Shown: positions 22,860 to 28,723 of the stretch, in pieces
Layout: the number at the start of each line of letters is the position of its first letter
Position numbering within the stretch: position 1 is the first letter of the stretch
Source: a virus
Virus record (IMG/VR): IMGVR_UViG_3300023174_000511
Location: 1-29,017 of that record
Reading direction: 5' to 3' (one strand)
DNA: 29,017 bases
Notes under the pieces: model-generated
The model's input: the letters and a program-made list of their open reading frames with translations, nothing else
The model's database searches: none
What the model was told of the DNA's origin: nothing
Program-made: the position numbers and the translations under genes

Positions 22860-22882
22860 GGGCACTTAGGTGCCCTTTCTTT
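22860..22882 (+). terminator. Rho-independent terminator
   Basis: Stem GGGCAC / GTGCCC (22860-22865 with 22870-22875), loop TTAG, followed by TTTCTTTT. It closes the gp17-side transcription unit and separates late from replication genes. Confidence 0.85.
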
Positions 22883-22916: not shown

Positions 22917-22981
22917 TTGTCTTACTAGAGCGTTATATATATACGCAGGGAAGATTCTTTGCGTACAACAACATAAAGGAA
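22917..22981 (+). promoter_or_regulatory. AT-rich promoter region and 5' UTR hairpin of secreted-peptide gene
   Basis: A weak sigma70-like pair is visible (TTGTCT at 22917-22922 with an AT-rich TATATA tract at 22934-22943). In the leader, TACGCA at 22942-22947 pairs with TGCGTA at 22960-22965, with AAG/CTT pairing inside the loop. AAAGGAA at 22975-22981 is a good Shine-Dalgarno for the ATG at 22990. No TAAATA late core is present. The rest of the 175-bp gap holds only the inverted repeat and terminator listed above. Confidence 0.4.
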
Positions 22982-22989
22982 ACTTTAAA

Positions 22990-23181
22990 ATGAAATCAGT
23001 AATCGCAATCATTGTATCAGCATTCGCATTGTCCGCTTTCGCAGCAGACGCCCCAAAAGCACCAGAAGCTGCTAAACCAGCTGCATCTGCTCCAGCCAAG
23101 GAGGCAGCTAAGCCTGCAAAAAGCGAACCTGCTAAGAAAGACGCACCTAAAGCAGACACAAAAGCCGCTACTACTAAGTAA
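22990..23181 (+). CDS. Small secreted Ala/Lys/Pro-rich protein
   Basis: A 63-residue precursor. Residues 1-18 are a classical Sec signal peptide: M-K-S, hydrophobic core IAIIVSAFAL, and A-F-A before the likely cut at A18/A19. There is no lipobox. The 45-residue mature part is almost only Ala, Lys, Pro, Glu and Asp, unstructured and rich in Lys. Export to the periplasm is the clear prediction; function is not. Such small Ala/Pro/Lys proteins are common in Betaproteobacteria, so host acquisition is possible. It has its own leader and strong SD and is not in the late-promoter style. Confidence 0.75.
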   Translation: MKSVIAIIVSAFALSAFAADAPKAPEAAKPAASAPAKEAAKPAKSEPAKKDAPKADTKAATTK

Positions 23182-23185
23182 TTTT

Positions 23186-23359
23186 GGAGTAGAAGATAGT
23201 GACCTCATTATTGATGATGAGGTCACATTTGGCCGTAATCGAAAAGCTGGCGAGTTTGGTAAGATAGTTCATGAAGATGAATTATCAGACCATGTAAAAT
23301 TTAGATTATGGTTGGCTAGGCAATTAGCATTAGCAAAATATAAGGAAAAGTGGGCATGA
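23186..23359 (+). CDS. ORF with coding character but no start codon
   Basis: The frame that follows the secreted-peptide stop reads VEDSDLIIDDEVTFGRNRKA, then GEFGKIVHEDELSDHVKFRL and WLARQLALAKYKEKWA. This looks like real protein: a charged N-terminus and an amphipathic helix. It ends at a TGA inside the loop of a terminator, as real last genes do. The frame contains no ATG, GTG, TTG or CTG near its beginning; GGAG at 23186-23189 is a possible Shine-Dalgarno, and a GTG at 23199 is in another frame. Options are a rare start codon, +1 frameshifting from the secreted-peptide ORF, a 1-2 nt indel, or a decayed gene. A 10-bp hairpin lies at its beginning. The left boundary is approximate. Confidence 0.5.
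   Translation, partial: GVEDSDLIIDDEVTFGRNRKAGEFGKIVHEDELSDHVKFRLWLARQLALAKYKEKWA
23199..23226 (+). promoter_or_regulatory. Perfect 10-bp hairpin at start of startless ORF
   Basis: GTGACCTCAT (23199-23208) pairs perfectly with ATGAGGTCAC (23217-23226) around an 8-nt loop. There is no T tract, so it is not a simple terminator. It lies 17 nt after the stop of the secreted peptide and just after a GGAG, where it could sequester a start site or stimulate recoding. Confidence 0.6.
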
Positions 23360-23375
23360 CCCGCTTTTTCTTTTG
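23346..23375 (+). terminator. Rho-independent terminator overlapping stop codon
   Basis: Stem AAAAGTGGG / CCCGCTTTT (23346-23354 with 23360-23368, one G-T pair) with loop CATGA, followed by a T-rich run. The TGA stop of the startless ORF overlaps the loop and the first base of the 3' arm, which supports that frame being (or having been) a gene. Confidence 0.8.
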
Positions 23376-26048: not shown

Positions 26049-26503
26049 TGAATTGGTACGATAAGGTTAGCAAGGATATTTCTAATATTCCTGATGCAGT
26101 AGCATACTATGAAGCCGAACTAATAGCGGCAAAGGTAGATGTTAAAGTAGCAGGCAATTTAGAAAGAGCTGCGGCTAATATGCCGGGTATTGTTGAAAAC
26201 CGATTTAATCAACTTCAAGAAATCGAAGGTATCTTAGAATATTTAAACATAGAACTAAGACGTCTTCGTAGTCAACATTTTCGTAAGTATTTAGAAAGTT
26301 ATCAACGGGCTTTGTCTTCGAGAGACTGTGAAAAGTTTGTCGAGGGCGAAGCTGACGTTGTAGACTTTGAAAAAATTATCAACGAATTTGCCCTACTGCG
26401 TAATAAATGGTTGGGCATTATCAAAGCACTTGACATTAAACAATGGCAAGTATCAAACATCGTAAAATTACGAACCGCAGGATTAGAAGACGCAACTCTA
26501 TGA
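26048..26503 (+). CDS. uvsY: Recombination mediator UvsY
   Basis: Loads UvsX on gp32-coated ssDNA. At 151 residues it matches T4 UvsY (137) in size and is helical: a first helix with DAVAYYEAELIAA, a central heptad-like helix (NLERAAANMPGIVENRFNQLQEIEGILEYLNIELRRLRSQH in outline), SSRDCEKFVEGEADVVDFEKIINEF, and a C-terminal helix pair (LLRNKWLGIIKALDIKQWQVSNIVKLR) resembling the T4 hexamerisation end (LDAIKSRGFAIKHIQDMR). It immediately follows the uvsX unit and overlaps the sugar dehydrogenase start by 4 nt (ATGA), tying a recombination gene to a sugar gene. Confidence 0.85.
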   Translation: MNWYDKVSKDISNIPDAVAYYEAELIAAKVDVKVAGNLERAAANMPGIVENRFNQLQEIEGILEYLNIELRRLRSQHFRKYLESYQRALSSRDCEKFVEGEADVVDFEKIINEFALLRNKWLGIIKALDIKQWQVSNIVKLRTAGLEDATL

Positions 26504-27297
26504 AAATAGGTATCATTGGGTTTGGCTTTGTTGGCCAAGCTATTGGTTGGGCACACCGTTCTGACGATTTAGTTATACGCGATCCAAAATTAGAAGATAG
26601 CGCCAGCCTTGATCAGTTTACCGGGTGTGATGCAATTTTTATTTGCGTCCCAAGTCCACCTACGGGAGATTTATATGAAAACGGCCGATGCGATAGTTCA
26701 ATTTTAGAACAAACATTAAAAGAATTATTATTTGTTACTATCAATAATCCAATCCCAATTATCTGCAAAACTACTGCGCCGCCAAGCGTATATGCAAGAT
26801 TGCAAAAAGAATATCCAAACATTGTTCATTGTCCGGAGTTTTTAACTGCGGCTAATGCTACTACAGATTATGCTAATGCTGATAGTTGTGTGATTGGTGG
26901 AGATTATGATTGGGCTGTAAAAGCACGTGATGTCATTAGACACGGTCGTCCGATGGTACATGATAAATTCACTATAGTTCCAATCAAAGTTGCAGCATTA
27001 CACAAATATCTAATGAACAGTTATCTTGCTACAAGAGTAACGTTTATGAACGATTTTAAAAAATTAGCAGATGCCGAAGAAGTAGAATGGGAAGATCTAG
27101 CATATCTTGCCAAGCACGACGGGCGGATTGGGTACAGTCATTTAGATGTGCCAGGTCCGGATGGGCAATACGGCTGGGGCGGCGCATGTTTTCCCAAAGA
27201 CGTTGCTGCTATAATTGAAGAAGCAATAGATTTAGAAGTTGATTTAGAGCTATTACAACGAGTAGAAACTCTCAATAAAATACATAGACGACTATAA
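26500..27297 (+). CDS. Short UDP-glucose/GDP-mannose dehydrogenase-like protein
   Basis: A 265-residue NAD-binding sugar-nucleotide dehydrogenase relative. The N-terminal Rossmann motif is GFGFVG (G7, G9, G12). CPEFLTAANA (111-120) matches the family PEFL motif; K169 and N173 in HKYLMNS align with the catalytic Lys/Asn helix. GGACFPKD (228-234 region) holds the catalytic Cys230. Full-length enzymes have about 390-450 residues; this one stops right after the central helix domain and lacks the C-terminal sugar-nucleotide-binding domain. It could be a minimal enzyme with another substrate or one that needs a partner. The start at 26500 (not 26443) is chosen because it begins the Rossmann strand and forms an ATGA overlap with uvsY. 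It converges on the GT17 gene with a 6-bp overlap. Confidence 0.82.
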   Translation: MKIGIIGFGFVGQAIGWAHRSDDLVIRDPKLEDSASLDQFTGCDAIFICVPSPPTGDLYENGRCDSSILEQTLKELLFVTINNPIPIICKTTAPPSVYARLQKEYPNIVHCPEFLTAANATTDYANADSCVIGGDYDWAVKARDVIRHGRPMVHDKFTIVPIKVAALHKYLMNSYLATRVTFMNDFKKLADAEEVEWEDLAYLAKHDGRIGYSHLDVPGPDGQYGWGGACFPKDVAAIIEEAIDLEVDLELLQRVETLNKIHRRL

Positions 27298-28092
27298 AAA
27301 TTTAGTCCAGAATGGAAATTTACGTAATTCTTTTTCTACGATTGCAGGATATCCTGGATTTTTACAATAGATAGTAGTAGTCTTGCCGTTGATTGCATCG
27401 CCGGTGTTTCCAGCGTGAAAATGTTCTAACATTTTTACTGTGTCTTTGTTTTGAGTTTCGATACAACTTTCAGCTTTGTATTTAAGACTTGCATCATCTC
27501 CCATCCACCCCCAGTGCCATCCTGCTGTTTCATTAGGAAATGATACACAATGATCTCTATTCTTTTTCTTTTGGGCGTGACCAACACCTGCTTGTAATCC
27601 TTTATACAGTTCACAAGGATCTTTAAACATATTTTTTTTTGCAACTACATTTCCCGCCCATTTACGATTTACCTTTTGATCAAATTTATAGATATAAAAA
27701 TCTAAAGTACATGTTACAGGCTTATTGGTTTCATTTAAGAATTTAAGTATCTCTGGGAATAATTCTGGATTTAAATTTTCGTCTAGGTCACTATGCATGA
27801 TAACATCATCTTCTGCACAGTCCATATATCCTGATAATAATGCAGCACGTTGGCCATTTTCAATGTCCCAATTTGACCATGTATCTGGAATATCTAATTT
27901 AACAACCTTTAATCGATCACCCAGGTGCTCGTATCTTTTAATATTGTCACTGAGATAATATGGCTTAGGTTTGCCGCTAAGTGTTCTATTGCCTTCGCAA
28001 ATAATCCACCTATCTACATAACTTTTACTAAGTTCGATTCTTAAATCTAATAGATGAAATTCGTTATTGAATAAAGTAGTATCAACAATCAT
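27292..28092 (-). CDS. Family 17 glycosyltransferase
   Basis: A 266-residue GT17-like enzyme (family of beta-1,4-N-acetylglucosaminyltransferases). Features are an opening FNNEFHLLDLRIEL, ICEGNRTLSGKPKPYYL, a D-x-D type SDLDE at 101-105 preceded by DDVIMH, a central LDFYIYKFD and a late GWHWGWMGD followed by EHFHAGN. These match the family order. It transfers a sugar from a nucleotide donor to an acceptor, perhaps host surface glycan or phage DNA or protein; the acceptor cannot be read. It starts one base after the methyltransferase stop, in one minus-strand unit with it. Confidence 0.82.
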   Translation of the reverse strand: MIVDTTLFNNEFHLLDLRIELSKSYVDRWIICEGNRTLSGKPKPYYLSDNIKRYEHLGDRLKVVKLDIPDTWSNWDIENGQRAALLSGYMDCAEDDVIMHSDLDENLNPELFPEILKFLNETNKPVTCTLDFYIYKFDQKVNRKWAGNVVAKKNMFKDPCELYKGLQAGVGHAQKKKNRDHCVSFPNETAGWHWGWMGDDASLKYKAESCIETQNKDTVKMLEHFHAGNTGDAINGKTTTIYCKNPGYPAIVEKELRKFPFWTKFL

Positions 28093-28093
28093 A

Positions 28094-28723
28094 TTAAAAT
28101 TTGTAAATTATTTGATATTCGTCGTATAAGGGAAATATATTTTTTTCTGCCAAATATTGATAAATGGCTCGCCCCTTGCCAGTTCGTTGACCGTTAGATA
28201 AAAATGCATTATCGTCTATAGCAACAATACAATTAGATAGATAGGGTTCTATCGCCTTGAATTCTTTTAAATGATGTTGTGCGCTTGGGTCATCATTGGT
28301 CCAATCGACATCATAACTATCTAGATAAAACAAATTTACAGAATTTAAATCTGATAATGATGCTAACCACGACACACTATCAGAACAAAAAGATCTATAA
28401 TATCGATTGTCTATAAAATTATTAGCAGTATTGACTGCAGATTGATCGATATCAACAGATCGAACAAACCCTCCATGCATTTTTACCAATTCAGCAAATA
28501 AAAATCCACTGTTTCCATCTTTCCAATTATTTGGATTTCTAACAGTTCCTGTTTCTATAATTTGATAATCTGTTGATTTAAGTGTTGATAGCTCATCGAA
28601 TATAATTTGAAAACCATGGGATCTATTATAAATGTCTTTGAGTAACCCTCTTTTAACACCACTGGCATTGATTGCCAATTTTGGTTTATATTCAGTTTGA
28701 AAAGTGTGCATCCATTCGTTCAT
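28094..28723 (-). CDS. Class I SAM-dependent methyltransferase
   Basis: A 209-residue methyltransferase-fold protein. Motif I is IETGTVR (56-62) followed by GNSGFLFAELV; the acidic end of strand 2 is SVDID (89-93); strand 4 is NLFYLDSYD (130-138), and CIVAIDDNAF (165-174) gives strand 5. The type resembles the methyltransferases that act on glycan or small-molecule substrates in glycan gene clusters. The first gene of a divergent minus-strand unit with the GT17 enzyme, with a leaderless-type late promoter. Its target is unknown; methylation of a sugar residue fits the neighbours. Confidence 0.75.
   Translation of the reverse strand: MNEWMHTFQTEYKPKLAINASGVKRGLLKDIYNRSHGFQIIFDELSTLKSTDYQIIETGTVRNPNNWKDGNSGFLFAELVKMHGGFVRSVDIDQSAVNTANNFIDNRYYRSFCSDSVSWLASLSDLNSVNLFYLDSYDVDWTNDDPSAQHHLKEFKAIEPYLSNCIVAIDDNAFLSNGQRTGKGRAIYQYLAEKNIFPLYDEYQIIYKF

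Follow-up and report, generated by a model that had tools for sequence, protein, structure and literature searches.

The window analysed here, i.e. the whole stretch of 29,017 nucleotides, is a 29-kb virus record from a T4-like phage and encodes a terminase, a gp32-type single-strand binding protein and a UvsX/RecA-like protein. The closest cultured terminases and gp32 proteins were less than 60% identical to those of the window, and their owners were jumbo phages such as Pseudomonas phage PA5oct and Sinorhizobium phage Phosso. Both phages retained the order of terminase, structural genes and gp32, and neither had an annotated gene at the place where the two reading frames described here, ORF1 and ORF2, are found. 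Behind UvsX, at positions 26443-28723, the sequence read as nucleotide-sugar dehydrogenase-like, glycosyltransferase-like and methyltransferase-like genes.

ORF1 and ORF2 lie on the plus strand in a small unit flanked by two terminators, in which a late-promoter-like TATATATA motif is followed by ORF1, by a startless ORF2 and by a terminator-like stem across the ORF2 stop. ORF1 (22990-23181) is the zero-frame gene of 63 amino acids; it comprises a signal peptide and a Lys/Ala/Pro-rich tail and ends with AAG TAA, the stop codon occupying positions 23179-23181. ORF2 (23180-23359) is an extension of 59 codons plus TGA in the +1 frame. This frame is open from 23180 to the TGA at 23357-23359 without any ATG, GTG or TTG, and it is also open upstream into ORF1. 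Inside ORF2, 17 nt after the ORF1 stop, lies a conserved RNA hairpin at 23199-23226 on the plus strand, GTGACCTCAT(8 nt)ATGAGGTCAC.

The upstream border of the unit is the terminator-like hairpin of the preceding gene (22860-22875, plus strand). The motif GCGTTATATATATA at 22930-22943 on the plus strand, upstream of ORF1, is late-promoter-like by its resemblance to the T4-type late promoter. In 60 of 84 relatives ORF1 was preceded by a corresponding pattern, GCGTTATATA[TC][AG]T, which looks like the late promoter of this phage lineage; in several relatives it was followed by an inverted repeat, e.g. TACGCAGG...TGCGTA. At the downstream end, folding predicted a terminator-like stem with a T tract at 23342-23372 on the plus strand. 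This agrees with the original prediction of a terminator overlapping the ORF2 stop; a pattern scan for terminators in the window did not list this stem. In 85 of 89 relatives a T-rich tract occurred within 50 nt of the ORF2 stop. Further small proteins with signal-peptide-like starts (MKKFMLALMLMI, MNKLIFVAGLAL) were encoded downstream of the unit in several relatives, which suggests a cluster of exported late proteins.

A search of IMG/VR with the ORF2 protein returned 104 stretches and a search with a profile 313. Junctions could be extracted from 226 usable loci, several contigs having been fetched repeatedly, and these represented 89 distinct sequences. Identity of ORF2 to the window dropped to about 60% among them. 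Each of ten large records (200-383 kb) held exactly one copy of ORF1/ORF2. ORF2 was always found behind ORF1 and never without it, whereas the downstream gene varied (gp32 in about half of the relatives, others elsewhere); the pair thus moves as one gene. No relative was detected in bacterial genomes or in cultured-phage records; for ORF2, the annotated phage collection contained no match, and comparison with Pfam, PHROGs and PDB gave nothing above noise. The structure model of ORF2 was poor (pLDDT 69) and contained one C-terminal helix. Neither ORF2 homologues with a start of their own nor in-frame fusions were found in viral scans with ORF2 and with ORF1.

The arrangement at the junction was strictly maintained. 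In 89 of 89 distinct junctions, as in 81 of 81 loci of the first set, ORF2 stood in the +1 relation to ORF1, and further distinct loci (L182, L237-L240, L242 and L244) agreed with it. The startless +1-frame ORF behind the stop of the secreted peptide, as originally described for the window, was confirmed and is conserved. Among distinct junctions, the ORF2 motif lay 40, 43, 46 or 49 nt from the ORF1 stop and at no other distance, from which it follows that indels were confined to whole codons. ORF1 ended in a Lys codon in all 89 sequences, AAG in 80 and AAA in 9, and the stop codon was UAA in 88 and UGA in one (L030, AAA_UGA_U). The Lys-rich tail of ORF1 was conserved as well (KS..AKKD). Some 13 to 19 codons before the stop, the Lys, Pro/Gly and Lys codons of this motif were nearly invariant at the third position over 58 sequences while their neighbours varied, a possible RNA-level element. 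With ORF1 as bait, ORF1-like exported Lys/Ala-rich proteins without ORF2 were also found in other phage contigs (L229, L235, L241). Since the Lys-ending tail was present in two of these (L229, L235), a terminal Lys alone is not diagnostic. The same bait retrieved additional distinct loci of the usual arrangement, including L246, where ORF2 had diverged almost beyond recognition, yet AAG_UAA was still followed by an ORF2-like frame in +1.

Selection on the two frames was compared by dN/dS, using 58 distinct sequences aligned by codon (173 close pairs). For the final 30 codons of ORF1 the ratio was 0.226 in frame 0 and 1.07 when these bases were read in +1; ORF2 in its +1 frame gave 0.24, with 0.19 for its first 14 codons. 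These values indicate that the coding frame switches at the ORF1 stop. At the same time, no NTG or ATN position was common to the relatives. One of them (L046) had no NTG in its entire open +1 frame, two (L031, L074) had no ATN near the hairpin, and an ATG at the start of ORF2 occurred in none of the 89 distinct sequences. Because there is no shared start and the frame switches at the stop, we infer that ribosomes arrive from ORF1 and skip one base. Conserved +1 junctions, frame-switching selection and the absent start codon together lend strong support, as far as sequence comparison reaches, to the +1 recoding that had been among the options proposed for the window. We put the probability that ORF1 and ORF2 are fused by a +1 frameshift at roughly 0.85.

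Two other origins of the arrangement have to be weighed against this reading. An indel introduced during sequencing or assembly, or a gene that was broken only recently, could have produced the appearance of a single window, and a small indel had indeed been suggested for it. The same +1 junction in 89 distinct sequences, which come from many metagenomes and are under purifying selection to either side of it, leaves practically no room for such an error, and what we observed looks like a conserved, previously unannotated genetic switch instead. The other possibility is that ORF2 is a separate protein, translated by internal initiation or re-initiation at a non-AUG codon, either a CTG or GTG within ORF1 or an ATT, ATA or ATC near the hairpin, perhaps aided by the hairpin or by GGAG/AAGGA. 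Suitable elements do exist: most relatives carry a +1-frame CTG or GTG 44-71 nt upstream of the stop, most have ATT or ATA codons at the hairpin, many have AAGGA about 80 nt upstream, and in the window AAGGAGG stands 9 nt before a CTG. Against this stand several observations. One relative is devoid of NTG and two are devoid of ATN at the hairpin, Shine-Dalgarno-like sequences lacked conservation and proper spacing in most relatives, and the +1 frame upstream of the stop was unconstrained (dN/dS 1.07). An ATG could easily have been supplied by selection, but, as noted, none was. The more specific proposal of a rare start codon after GGAG fails likewise, this GGAG being particular to the window and a few other sequences and missing from nearly all relatives, with selection setting in right after the stop. 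We consider independent initiation of ORF2 improbable.

If the frame is shifted from ORF1, the shift would probably take place exactly at the final Lys codon. The proposed site, AAG_UAA_U at 23176-23182 on the plus strand, has the Lys codon in the P site and the stop in the A site; AAG_UAA was present in 80 and AAA_UAA or AAA_UGA in 9 of the 89 relatives. AAG was strongly preferred here: it was used for the terminal Lys in 52 of 58 sequences and for 341 of 746 other Lys codons of ORF1 (Fisher P = 2e-11, the counts ignoring shared ancestry), and the other genes of the window contained 376 AAA and 136 AAG codons. After the stop, T was the commonest base, A and G were also found, and C never occurred; UAAU was the commonest tetranucleotide. 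Several of these properties count against a +1 shift. AAG_UAA differs from classical +1 slippery sites, as tRNA-Lys(UUU) on AGU would hold one Watson-Crick pair. Re-pairing from AAG to AGU is thus poor, and AAG is preferred though AAA would allow better re-pairing after a +1 shift. UAAU, too, is generally regarded as an efficient stop. A Shine-Dalgarno-like stimulator was absent from the near upstream region of the site; matches were located either downstream of the stop or at least 44 nt ahead of it. In E. coli the sole tRNA-Lys pairs relatively weakly with AAG (PMC5009743), and such weak pairing would fit detachment of the tRNA from the codon.

A special phage suppressor or four-base tRNA was considered and rejected, the tRNA sets of the large relatives being ordinary by anticodon as far as these possibly incomplete records go. 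Transcriptional slippage was likewise rejected since there is no homopolymer run at the junction. Most large relatives with tRNA clusters had only tRNA-Lys UUU and two also had CUU; only two tRNAs were found in a 280-kb relative (L064) and none in the 200-kb record behind L046, either of which may be incomplete. Eight of the ten records L298-L307 (280-383 kb) carried about 24-41 tRNA genes, a nearly full set. In one 320-kb relative, ARAGORN predicted a phage-encoded tmRNA with the tag peptide ANDEQFALAA in the tRNA cluster (L304, 10464-11008, minus strand).

The hairpin had been proposed as a perfect 10-bp stem, which was borne out (23199-23208 pairing with 23217-23226); folding added two A-U pairs. 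The 91-nt region folded at z = -4.2. Its pairing was evolutionarily maintained: over 71 distinct sequences, 92.8% of the cells of the ten pairs were paired, compared with 24-64% when the pairs were slid along the alignment. On a tree built without the hairpin region, 24 independent double changes that kept pairing were counted, against 1-2 in the slid controls; 11 of the 24 fell on one pair (C-G to or from U-A). The hairpin was also more stable than synonymous-codon recodings of the same sequence, with z < -1 in 54 of 58 distinct relatives and a mean z of -3.06, and in a sliding scan of the fused coding region it gave the only strong peak of structure selection (z -3.8), directly behind the stop. 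From pairing, compensatory changes, stability and scan peak we conclude that the hairpin is a real RNA structure, under selection beyond that on the encoded amino acids.

Its function is less clear-cut. Between stop and hairpin there were 17 nt in most relatives and 11, 14 or 20 nt in others. We estimate from ribosome geometry that a ribosome pausing at the stop would not reach most of these hairpins with its leading edge. Stimulators of -1 frameshifting typically lie 5-9 nt from the shift site (PMC5472766); the greater distance here counts against a classical stimulator. It is conceivable, at odds somewhat below even, that the hairpin acts elsewhere, in mRNA stability, transcription pausing or protein binding, and that the +1 shift is brought about by the stop and the nascent chain only. 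The long and variable spacing would suit such a role, as would a loop that showed no conservation beyond its codons, and the diverged locus L246 lacks the conserved hairpin (an alternative 7-bp pairing, CGTACAG/CTGTACG, was seen there by eye only). Against this stands its position as the sole strong structure-selection peak of the fused coding region, just behind the recoding stop, and we lean slightly towards a hairpin that helps the +1 shift.

A stop after the take-off codon, a nearby hairpin and a Lys-rich nascent chain also recall T4 gene 60 (PMC5009743), and a bypass of this type had been suggested. In translational bypassing or stop-hopping, tRNA-Lys would leave AAG and land on an AAN codon overlapping the stop or past the hairpin; among the 80 junctions with AAG, 38 could indeed offer AAA or AAG as landing codon through UAAA or UAAG. 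Most often, however, UAA is followed by T, which yields AAU and not a Lys codon, so that take-off and landing codons are mismatched, and L030 with AAA_UGA_U has no AAN at all. Moreover, protein selection extends from directly after the stop through the hairpin (dN/dS 0.19 for the first 14 codons), leaving no untranslated gap that would be skipped. Bypassing is therefore disfavoured and appears even less probable than independent initiation.

For the +1 frameshift, the following sequence of events may be envisaged. ORF1 and ORF2 would form one gene, expressed by late transcription of a one-gene unit. Ribosomes would translate the signal peptide and the Lys-rich tail and, on reaching the terminal AAG, pause while UAA occupies the A site. 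Some of them would skip the U, move to +1 with peptidyl-tRNA-Lys in the P site and proceed into ORF2, giving a fusion of about 122 amino acids whose C-terminal extension has about 60 residues; the remaining ribosomes would terminate and release the 63-residue protein. Weak pairing of tRNA-Lys with AAG and/or the Lys-rich nascent chain might assist, and the hairpin might stimulate or regulate the shift. For gene 60, the nascent peptide is reported to promote +1 shifting at CCC_UGA in E. coli (PMC5009743); that the conserved KS..AKKD tail acts in a similar manner is a guess by analogy.

The locus shares features with several known recoding systems. In phage SPP1, gene 17.1/17.1* shifts to +1 at CCC_UAA (PMC6316719), and in the Listeria phages PSA, A118 and A500, tsh shifts at CCC_UGA (PMC5009743). 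As in these cases, a phage gene would be shifted at its last sense codon, the exact codon being inferred here, to give a C-terminally extended minor product from the +1 frame. There, the site is a Pro codon with good re-pairing from CCC to CCU, and the products are tail proteins of Gram-positive phages; here, it is Lys AAG or AAA (89 of 89, no CCC) in the gene of an exported protein of large T4-like phages, with a conserved hairpin. The RF2 gene prfB equally shifts to +1 with the stop in the A site; it uses a Shine-Dalgarno-like AGGGGG three nt upstream of the site CUU_UGA_C and serves RF2 autoregulation (PMC12421855). Our locus has no such element, the site is AAG or AAA followed by UAA (UGA once) and never by C after the stop, and the product is unrelated. 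Gene 60 resembles it in the stop beside the departure codon, the nearby hairpin and the Lys-containing nascent chain (PMC5009743), whereas our locus has no skipped non-coding gap, in most relatives no matched landing codon, a shift by a single nucleotide and a hairpin that lies downstream and not at the take-off site. Finally, the cardiovirus EMCV has a stem-loop with compensatory changes beyond the usual 5-9 nt, at 13-14 nt compared with 11-20 nt here (PMC5472766). Frameshifting in EMCV, however, is in the -1 direction on a slippery heptamer, takes place on eukaryotic ribosomes and requires the RNA-binding protein 2A (PMC5472766); the phage locus has no candidate for a stem-loop-binding protein, and its loop is not conserved beyond the codons.

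As is generally expected of programmed +1 frameshifting, the downstream frame at this locus is coding, under selection, in +1 to the upstream ORF, startless and conserved. Shifting to +1 at a stop is a known kind of event; AAG_UAA, the poor re-pairing and the distant hairpin would be new here. Our search of the open-access literature turned up no description of the gene, and none of AAG_UAA serving as a utilised +1 site. Only few utilised +1 frameshifts are known from phages; the cases found were SPP1 and the Listeria phages, both on slippery Pro codons. The present case is repeated throughout a large group of uncultured phages, and it combines a poorly re-pairing site with a hairpin that covaries and lies at an unusual distance.

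In conclusion, a conserved part of a phage protein is missed by gene callers, the ORF2 half having no match in Pfam, PHROGs or among annotated phages. A more far-reaching and speculative idea, which we regard as possible and rather unlikely, is that this lineage of large T4-like phages shifts to +1 at AAG_UAA independently of tRNA re-pairing. The driving force would then be the Lys-rich nascent chain as it emerges with its signal peptide and/or the distant hairpin, possibly with a phage factor, and the extended exported late protein would be made only in a given state, such as late infection, low release factor or Sec engagement. The many natural variants of this one signal lend themselves to direct tests of what drives a bacterial +1 shift at a stop codon.
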